Source: Citrobacter gillenii
GTDB taxonomy: Bacteria > Pseudomonadota > Gammaproteobacteria > Enterobacterales > Enterobacteriaceae
NCBI RefSeq assembly: GCF_013337685.1
Contig: NZ_SUQN01000006.1
Coordinates: 248,001 to 312,000, forward strand
Length of the DNA: 64,000 nt
Direction of reading: 5' to 3'
Position 1 is the first letter of the stretch; the number at the start of each line of letters is the position of its first letter. The translations under genes were made by a program, and so were the position numbers. This document shows positions 56,597 to 58,812 of the stretch, in pieces. The notes under the pieces were generated by a model, which saw only the letters and a list, made by a program, of their open reading frames with translations, had not been told where the DNA came from and did not search any database.

Positions 56597-57583
56597 ATGG
56601 GACAACTTATTGACGGCGTCTGGCATGACACCTGGTATGACACAAAATCTACCGGGGGAAAATTTCAACGTTCTGCATCGGCTTTCCGTAACTGGCTCAC
56701 CGCGGATGGCGAACCTGGCCCGACCGGCACAGGCGGTTTTGCCGCCGAAAAAGACCGTTACCACCTGTACGTTTCCCTCGCCTGTCCGTGGGCGCATCGC
56801 ACGCTGATTCTACGCACGCTCAAAGGTCTGGAGCCATTTATCTCCGTTTCCGTTGTGCATCCGCTGATGCTAGAGAACGGCTGGACGTTTGATGATAATT
56901 TCCCGGCCGCCACGGGAGATACGCTCTACCAGCACGAGTTTCTCTATCAGCTCTATTTGCATGCCGACCCGCAGTACAGCGGCCGCGTCACCGTACCGGT
57001 GCTGTGGGATAAAAAGAATCACACCATCGTCAGTAATGAATCGGCGGAGATCATCCGCATGTTTAACACGGCGTTTGATGCACTGGGCGCCAAAGCCGGT
57101 GATTACTACCCGCCTGCCCTGCAAAGTAAAATTGACGAGCTGAACAGCTGGATTTATGACAACGTCAATAATGGCGTCTATAAAGCCGGTTTTGCCACCA
57201 GTCAGGAGGCATATGATGAGGCGGTTGATAAAGTGTTTCACTCACTGGCGCGACTGGAGCAGATTCTGGGTCAGCATCGCTATCTGACCGGTGACCAGTT
57301 GACCGAGGCAGATATTCGCCTGTGGACCACGCTGGTACGCTTTGATCCGGTGTATGTTACCCACTTCAAGTGCGATAAGCACCGCATCAGTGACTACCTG
57401 AATCTGTACGGTTTTCTGCGCGATATTTACCAGATGCCGGGCATTGCGGAGACCGTCAATTTTGACCATATCCGTCATCACTACTTCCGTAGCCACAAAA
57501 CCATCAATCCGACCGGTATTATTTCAATCGGGCCATGGCAGGATCTCAGCGAGCCACACGGACGAGACAGCCGTTTCGCATGA
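56597..57583 (+). CDS. yqjG: glutathionyl-hydroquinone reductase
   Basis: A 328-residue xi-class glutathione transferase that reduces glutathionyl-hydroquinones. The active-site Cys is in Ala-Cys-Pro-Trp-Ala-His-Arg near residue 63, and the C-terminal helical domain has Asp-Ile-Arg-Leu-Trp-Thr-Thr-Leu-Val-Arg-Phe. Length equals E. coli YqjG. GGAGG precedes the ATG. A structured inverted repeat follows the gene. Confidence 0.94.
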   Translation: MGQLIDGVWHDTWYDTKSTGGKFQRSASAFRNWLTADGEPGPTGTGGFAAEKDRYHLYVSLACPWAHRTLILRTLKGLEPFISVSVVHPLMLENGWTFDDNFPAATGDTLYQHEFLYQLYLHADPQYSGRVTVPVLWDKKNHTIVSNESAEIIRMFNTAFDALGAKAGDYYPPALQSKIDELNSWIYDNVNNGVYKAGFATSQEAYDEAVDKVFHSLARLEQILGQHRYLTGDQLTEADIRLWTTLVRFDPVYVTHFKCDKHRISDYLNLYGFLRDIYQMPGIAETVNFDHIRHHYFRSHKTINPTGIISIGPWQDLSEPHGRDSRFA

Positions 57584-57652
57584 TTTACACAGGTCCCTTT
57601 GGGGTAATGCCGATTAGTTAAGCATGTATGGCGAACATGTGATTTTTGCTCA

Positions 57653-58251
57653 GGGTTCCGTTCACCTCAGCTGTGTCATTTCTCTGAAACGCCGTTACCC
57701 GTGAACGTGCAAGGGAGGCTCACCGCCGCCTCCCTTGCAACCCAGGCTCCCGGCGGGAAAATCGTCGCTACGCGATTCATTCGTCTTATGCCGTCTGCCT
57801 GTCGGGTCGGGGCCGAGCCTGCATCCTTGCAGGCCGTCCCCTCTGCCCGCATCCCTGCGGGCAGACCCGGTCAGCCGTCAACGACTCATCGATTTTCAGC
57901 CGGACATGGGTCATCGCTTCAACTCTCTGACTTTCAGTTAAATCTCTTATGCTGTTCAGATATATTCAAATAAAAATACCGGTAGTCAGGCGTGGCTGGT
58001 CCGGCTGAAAATTGCCGACGTGTTTCCGTAAGGCCGGGAGAACCCGCAGGGATGCGGGTTCAGGGCGCGCTTTACAGGGACGTTACATCGCGCCCGGCCC
58101 GAAAGCCTGAAGGAAAAAGCGGAGGGAACCACGAAGTGGCAATTTTCCCGCCGGGAGCCGGGATTGTAAAGGGCGTGGCGGAGAACGCCCTTTACACGTT
58201 CACATGAACCAATACTTAAGAGAAGCGATGAACATAAGGTGAACGGAACCC
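57653..58251. repeat. 599-bp structured inverted-repeat element with covarying stems
   Basis: Two arms, 57653-57905 and 57999-58251, are each exactly 253 bp and are inverted relative to each other. They share perfect 15-bp termini (GGGTTCCGTTCACCT) and an 18-bp block at offset 92. Stems at identical offsets are kept by paired changes. Offset 56: GCAAGGGAGGC/GCCTCCCTTGC against GTAAAGGGCGT/ACGCCCTTTAC, both 11 bp with 8-base loops. Offset 112: TCGC/GCGA against CCAC/GTGG. Offset 156: GGGGCCG/CGTCCCC against GGGCGCG/CGCGCCC. Offset 190: CTGCCCGC/GCGGGCAG against GAACCCGC/GCGGGTTC, loop ATCCCT in both. Right-arm sequences are given on the minus strand. The 93-bp centre is AT-rich and not repeated. 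No credible gene lies inside. Confidence 0.85.
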
Positions 58252-58446
58252 TTTCTCTGAGAGCGTATATTCATTACTTCCGCCAACACAGGTTGATACT
58301 TTCTGAAACTGAGGCGTTCACTGATAAGTATTACCCATCAGGGGACCAAATAATTAATACGACAAATATTTACCACCATTTCATTCGCAGCTATTCTTAA
58401 TTTGATTACTTTAAAAACAAGTGATTGAACGCAAAATGAGGCGCAA
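58252..58446. other. yhaH upstream region
   Basis: AT-rich sequence of about 195 bp between the inverted-repeat element and yhaH. Nothing recognised beyond a likely promoter region. Confidence 0.4.
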
Positions 58447-58812
58447 ATGGATTGGTATCTAAACGTTCTTAAGAACTATTTTGGTTTTGGCGGCCGGGCT
58501 CGGCGCAAAGAGTACTGGATGTTTGTTCTGGTCAACATCATCTTTTCTTTCGTACTCAGCATCCTGGACAACATGCTTGGCTGGCAACGCGCCGGGGGAG
58601 AAGGCGTATTAACGACGATTTATGGTGTGCTGGTATTTATACCGTGGTGGGCAGTGCAGTTCCGTCGTTTGCATGACACCGACCGTTCTGCATGGTGGCT
58701 GCTGATCCTGTTGATCCCCATTATTGGCTGGTTAGTTATCATTATTTTCAACTGTCAGAACGGCACGCCGGGTAGCAACCGCTTCGGTGCAGACCCTAAA
58801 CAACTGTCCTGA
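58447..58812 (+). CDS. yhaH: DUF805 inner-membrane protein YhaH
   Basis: A 121-residue membrane protein with three to four helices and the DUF805 motifs Gly-Arg-Ala-Arg-Arg-Lys-Glu-Tyr-Trp and Arg-Arg-Leu-His-Asp-Thr-Asp-Arg-Ser. It is closest to E. coli YhaH. K-12 has a second DUF805 gene (yhaI) next to it, absent here. Function unknown. Confidence 0.92.
   Translation: MDWYLNVLKNYFGFGGRARRKEYWMFVLVNIIFSFVLSILDNMLGWQRAGGEGVLTTIYGVLVFIPWWAVQFRRLHDTDRSAWWLLILLIPIIGWLVIIIFNCQNGTPGSNRFGADPKQLS

Follow-up and report, generated by a model that had tools for sequence, protein, structure and literature searches.

A mobile IS4-type element in a terminator of Citrobacter gillenii and its mirror pair of putative CsrA-binding RNAs

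REP doublets (REPINs), ERIC, RIP and BoxC are dispersed structured repeats of enterobacterial genomes. For E. coli, a table in PMC2267715 gives sizes of 140 for ERIC, 50 for BoxC and 108 for PU-BIME, and it is by these tabulated sizes that we set these three apart from the element described here. The closest described relative is of another kind, namely TwoAYGGAY RNA (RF01731, clan CL00106), which a 2010 survey, where it treats this family, considers a probable RNA that is probably not cis-regulatory and to which it assigns no function (PMC2864571), whereas Rfam labels it Cis-reg. Binding of CsrA to TwoAYGGAY was predicted in 2014, without validation in the part of that paper concerned (PMC4333381), and RsmW belongs to the same Rfam clan. 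What CsrA and RsmE recognise is described in PMC4005645 as an ANGGAX hexaloop sitting directly on a stem, and the CsrA SELEX consensus given in PMC7652899 is RUACARGGAUGU, most of the selected hairpins having four or fewer pairs.

The window, by which we mean the whole 64,000-nucleotide stretch of C. gillenii DNA that was analysed, contains two inverted arms (approximately 57653-57905 and 57999-58251) on either side of a 93-bp central spacer (57906-57998). The initial annotation had reported these arms, with hairpins at equal positions in both, and the analysis bears this out. The arms have in common their 15-bp ends (GGGTTCCGTTCACCT) and an 18-bp block (GGCTCCCGGCGGGAAAAT). Read from the centre outwards, which is the proposed RNA strand (minus for arm 1, plus for arm 2), each consists of a multi-branched core of ~155 nt (57750-57905 and 57999-58154), an outer hairpin and a further helix. 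The outer hairpins (57708-57739 in arm 1 and 58165-58196 in arm 2) were found by repeat search and in the family alignment and are perfect, with 12 bp and 8-nt loops; the outermost helices, in which GTTCAC faces GTGAAC (57660-57706 and 58198-58244), come from arm comparison and the family alignment, and the alignment also predicts helices at the remaining hairpin positions. The initial reading of each arm as a structured element stands but is incomplete, the core having a known relative in TwoAYGGAY RNA and the pair riding in an IS4-type element that splits a terminator. The first reading had missed the larger element (57605-58333), the long-range helix with its multi-branch core and the dispersed nature of the repeat.

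A coding gene was considered and rejected. The three open reading frames over the arms are short (90, 68 and 71 aa) and have no Pfam match near the cut-off (best E 0.096), and none of the reading frames stays open across the core in every one of the 40 aligned arms, the best being open in 29/40 on the outer-to-inner strand. Frames on that strand are often open (29, 23 and 19 of 40 cores), which we put down to base composition, and core length is not a multiple of three in 19 of the 40 arms. The frame and Pfam results argue against a gene, although a short peptide is still conceivable.

The pair is carried by a MITE-like element of 729 bp (57605-58333) that has no transposase gene, and whose limits are set by empty sites in four congeners (G005, G006, G013 and G014) and by ends common across copies. 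Both ends resemble those of IS4. The left terminal inverted repeat (TAATGCCGATTAGTTAAG, 57605-57622, plus strand) is identical to the left end of IS4 at 17/18 positions, while the right one (GTTCACTGATAAGTATTA, 58316-58333, minus strand) has diverged (12/18 to IS4), a form that is common elsewhere (GTTAACTGAACGGCATTA) scoring 15/18; past the first ~18 bases, no likeness to the IS4 end could be seen by eye. The neighbours of the element are a GST-family gene (56597-57583) and a DUF805 gene (58447-58812), which we take to be yqjG and yhaH. In several of the 17 genus genomes, searched with the flanks included, these flanks abut and ~57605-58341 is absent, and the empty sites read in the four congeners consist of a hairpin and then a T-rich tract, shortly 3' of the GST gene. 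In the window, comparison with these sites reveals the two halves of such a terminator hairpin on either side of the element (57590-57604, with CCCTTTGGGG at the junction, and 58334-58355, with CCCATCAGGGG then ACCAAATAATT, both on the plus strand), whereas the terminator is intact in the four congeners. G010 has the element at the same site in opposite orientation, and element-related matches occur in 15/17 genus genomes, our own included. Short forms that have lost the inner parts of both arms are seen at the same terminator in two genomes (L075 in G007 and L076 in G016).

Copies for which both ends could be found fill 38 rows (one locus being counted twice), which represent 27 site clusters. 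A target duplication of 10-14 bp, mostly imperfect and of the length made by IS4, is present in 16/38 rows, and a hairpin followed by a T-run spans the rejoined site in 23/38, versus 59/737 random positions; at cluster level, a terminator is seen in at least one row of 19 clusters and a duplication in at least one row of 15. Counting against our explanation, 15/38 rows have no terminator according to the script, which misses decayed sites, and the window's own site is among them; nor does the script call the flanks of the window copy (CCCTTTGGGG and CCCATCAGGGG) a duplication. As far as sequence comparison goes, the IS4-like ends, the split terminator, the dispersed genus copies and the target duplications identify the repeat as a non-autonomous, MITE-like transposable element of IS4 type, and the ends, the target duplications of related copies and the empty sites place its insertion in the hairpin of an intrinsic terminator.

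With IS4 and its family the element thus shares its terminal inverted repeats, the length of the target duplication and a terminator-like target; unlike them, it has no transposase gene. Seven of the nine IS4 loci viewed (which are not a fair sample, because the query included four bases of flank) lie in the adhE terminator, and the remaining two lie inside bcsG and inside a siderophore receptor gene, both followed by a T-tract. Matches to the IS4 transposase query were found in 3/17 genus genomes, none of them our own. G004, which is of the same species, harbours an IS4-type element with like ends and an open 455-aa frame, a near-full-length homologue of the IS4 transposase (39% identical), flanked on each side by a 12-bp duplication (CCCTTGATTGGG) ahead of a T-run. 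The mover would be an IS4-family transposase, and we infer a link to this full-length relative. IS4 of E. coli (L077, 2440-4210) and the IS4-type element of G004 (L311, 1300-3000) both sit inside terminator-like hairpins, and the 11-12 bp duplications span the hairpin loop. Elsewhere, in G076, the same arm pair lies between different but IS4-like ends (L277, with TGATACCAACCGTTTAAG, and L278), and adjoins terminator-like sequence in L278.

The dispersed copies for which the initial annotation had advised a search exist in the genus, in genomes of the family and in E. coli. At least a partial arm match is present in 4522/5426 E. coli genomes; no place there covers 80% of the query, and the 30 matches listed cover one arm. 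In E. coli, copies were read at two places, one between mmuM and tauA and the other between yegH and asmA, and K-12 has kept a partly deleted copy at the latter. A covariance model of the core, R1, was built from 40 arms; it recovers both window cores (G000:C21:305750-305905:- and G000:C21:305999-306154:+) and matches at least 103/295 family genomes and at least 55/154 genera, as well as at least 10/369 genomes across the class including our own, nine of which belong to other families, these genome counts being lower bounds because filters were strict and few candidates were scored. Phage records gave no match to the query, and 13 plasmid records did, one of them, from Citrobacter freundii, spanning it whole. 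Many family genomes have arms with core, outer hairpin and helix, also as single copies. Where two arms are inverted they are always divergent (58 pairs, 0 convergent), mostly 85-95 bases apart, and many of these pairs are copies by descent; neighbouring arms in the same direction number 12. Tandem arrays of the structured unit are seen in L271 (2684-4896, G168) and L272 (2179-4300, G027), several of the units being spaced ~446 and 640 bases.

The surroundings of solo copies bear on what the arms might do. With a simple ORF caller of our own making, 51/67 solo copies could be classified, and 31/51 lie between convergent genes and 1/51 between divergent genes, whereas 5/26 gaps between genes in the window are convergent. 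Between same-direction genes there is no sense bias (9 sense, 10 antisense), and these positions fit insertion at gene ends. They would also suit bidirectional transcript-end elements, that is, arms whose stable hairpins stop 3' exonucleases, or keep transcription from running on from one convergent gene into the other, and replace the split terminator, with no part for CsrA, the more so as mirror symmetry would serve both directions. Yet insertion at terminators combined with selection against promoter damage would yield the same distribution, this alternative leaves the GGA loops described below without explanation, and the region has no intrinsic-terminator-like site (1.5 expected), all of which makes us regard it as unlikely. 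A scan for promoters picked out a single site (58170-58142, minus strand), where 1.1 are expected by chance, and found no divergent promoter and no promoter-like site in the spacer.

How the arms fold is best seen in the family alignment, which, for the centre-outwards strand, predicts 54 pairs in 12 helices, 37 of them with double changes. Besides a long outer helix and a small hairpin, the predicted fold has an inner multi-branch with two loop hairpins; the 12-bp outer hairpin and, outermost of all, the GTTCAC/GTGAAC helix complete it. Over the 40 aligned arms, 97.6% of the cells are paired versus 83.3% in shuffled and 36-46% in slid controls, and 317 cells have double changes versus 94 shuffled and 17-39 slid; the compensatory base changes initially proposed for the arm hairpins are therefore real and far above controls, although the shuffled controls overstate significance because the 40 arms are related. 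Covariation extends to the long-range helix, whose partners are ~140-150 columns apart (columns 16 and 157, for instance, are CG in 27 arms and UA in 13). Together with the dispersed copies, this supports the proposal that the arms, present here as two inverted copies, each behave as a conserved RNA structure or as a nucleic acid hairpin. In six loci, one arm is enlarged by an insert of ~70-80 bases that brings a further hairpin, with the loop CAGGGATG in five of them (L050 near 1430, and L094-L097) and without GGA in L281.

Paired hairpins could, in principle, be kept by something other than function. Template-switch correction of quasipalindromes can perfect short-loop hairpins, and a dead MITE maintained in this way would be passenger junk, which agrees with the existence of internally deleted forms and with a genome that has no match to the IS4 transposase query. 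What makes this very improbable in our view is that the long-range helix covaries too, that ANGGAX is kept in the loops while N and X drift, and that the core model reaches the nine genomes from other families of the class.

A different question is whether the folded molecule is RNA, and if so which strand. For the 46 pairs common to the folds of both strands, there are 1949 Watson-Crick cells versus 18 wobble or A-C cells, and assuming an outward-running RNA gives 13 wobble cells versus 5 for an inward-running one (one-sided p 0.048). Under the same filter, CsrB gives 11:0 beside 790 Watson-Crick cells and 6S gives 11:1 beside 1061, the true strand of 6S being taken from the listing of its first record. 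The centre-outwards strand is thus favoured, not proved, by a test that is weak. Pairing this close to pure Watson-Crick would be natural if the arms acted as DNA, as folded single strands that a transposase, or some other protein that binds DNA, would recognise, with the pair as a substrate for movement. REPINs offer a model for such recognition of DNA hairpins, and the single arrangement of inverted pairs (divergent, likewise at five out-of-family loci) as well as the existence of solo and tandem copies can be read in the same sense. The CsrB and 6S controls, however, weaken the argument from scarce wobble, IS4-type ends already account for movement in the genus, and the loops are conserved in a way that fits CsrA position by position. 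We give the DNA alternative little credence.

In arm 2 the CsrA-type loops are CAGGGATG (58047-58054) and CAGGGACG (58075-58082) on the plus strand, and in arm 1 CAGGGATG (57850-57857) and CAAGGATG (57822-57829) on the minus strand. In the first loop, 39 of the 40 arms have A and all 40 have GGA, with N and X free; in the second, 38 have A, 40 have GG and 37 have the last A, again with N and X free. Both loops are closed by C-G in 40/40 arms, giving the form C-ANGGAX-G. An ANGGAN hexaloop directly on a C-G pair, as in CsrA/RsmE sites, is therefore present. Extending the comparison to 153 arms, which are related by descent so that motif counts are not independent, CANGGANG is found in 153/153, versus 1/153 on the other strand and a shuffled mean of 6.7, and 134 arms have it at least twice in the core; ACARGGAYGT is found in 34/153, never on the other strand, with a shuffled mean of 0.06. 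One arm loop stem, on the other hand, has 8 pairs, which counts against the CsrA reading when set beside the SELEX hairpins. The regulator itself is at hand, with a CsrA gene in 17/17 genus genomes. Our own genome also contains a single full-length match to CsrB, away from the element; within the window, CsrB (RF00018) has no match at the gathering score, nor any in 57550-58400 when E up to 1 is allowed. CsrB/CsrC and RsmW-type sRNAs likewise display CsrA-type hairpin loops, but each comes from a single locus, whereas the arms are dispersed and mobile, have two such loops per arm, no convincing promoter and no Rfam CsrB match.

No Rfam family is found in the window at its curated threshold, and the relation to TwoAYGGAY is one of likeness. 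Arm 2 aligns with RF01731 at 58000-58147 on the plus strand with 35.7 bits (E 8.6e-4), short of the gathering score of 43 bits, which makes it a relative, not a member; for arm 1, no match to the family appears even with E up to 1 allowed. The gathering score is reached by 1/20 further sources (L276, 43.2 bits). The family loci tested alongside do not attain the RF01731 cut-off (0/5), in contrast to out-of-family loci found with R1, 10/15 of which do, with up to 62.4 bits (15 fetched of 17 places). In five of the latter, two RF01731 matches are divergent and none convergent, 79-263 bases apart in four loci and 1.2 kb apart in one. Two divergent out-of-family pairs, in L354 (1135-1712) and L350 (1429-2097), have a hairpin on both sides, which in L354 reads TTTTCTTGCTTGTCCAAGAAAA. 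Shared with TwoAYGGAY are the multi-branched core, the outer helix and the two GGA-loop hairpins, on the same strand. The differences lie in (i) the loops, whose second position is a purine in the window (AGGGAT, AAGGAT and AGGGAC, compared with AYGGAY in the family name), the 40 arms as a whole having ANGGAX and one E. coli copy ATGGAT, (ii) the added outer hairpin and helix and (iii) the IS4-type carrier in Citrobacter. These likenesses strongly suggest that we are dealing with an RNA, related to TwoAYGGAY and equipped with loops of CsrA type.

The explanation that we prefer, and consider reasonably probable, is that of a mobile IS4-type mirror pair of putative CsrA-binding (decoy) RNAs residing in a terminator. 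Comparison between genomes establishes the dispersal, the insertion in terminators and the conserved structure; transcription of the arms, CsrA binding and a decoy or 3' regulatory effect are what we infer. The cargo would be two divergent copies of a TwoAYGGAY-like structured RNA, each of which may present two C-ANGGAX-G hairpin loops to CsrA. Owing to the mirror symmetry, transcription running in from either neighbouring gene would yield one copy in sense orientation, and the arm RNA may then act as a CsrA-binding 3' element or as a decoy, beside CsrB. Counting against this explanation, a predicted fold for a transcript of the entire element has the two arms pairing in part with one another.

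Our literature search, mostly of non-subscription sources, returned among the matches listed no paper on this element, on its combination of features or on terminator targeting by IS4. Intrinsic terminators seem to be preferred targets of IS4 and its small relatives, which can be tested directly. Independently of this, since a relative of TwoAYGGAY is a dispersed repeat in family genomes and in E. coli, the CsrA prediction becomes testable in laboratory E. coli. A broader proposal, which we put forward tentatively and think could well be wrong, is that a transposable family spreads pairs of CsrA decoys, that its insertions in terminators add 3' CsrA sites to transcripts from either direction, that copy number tunes the pool of free regulator, and that TwoAYGGAY RNAs in general are mobile CsrA sponges. 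If CsrA binding holds true, the copy number of a mobile element would be reshaping the Csr network.
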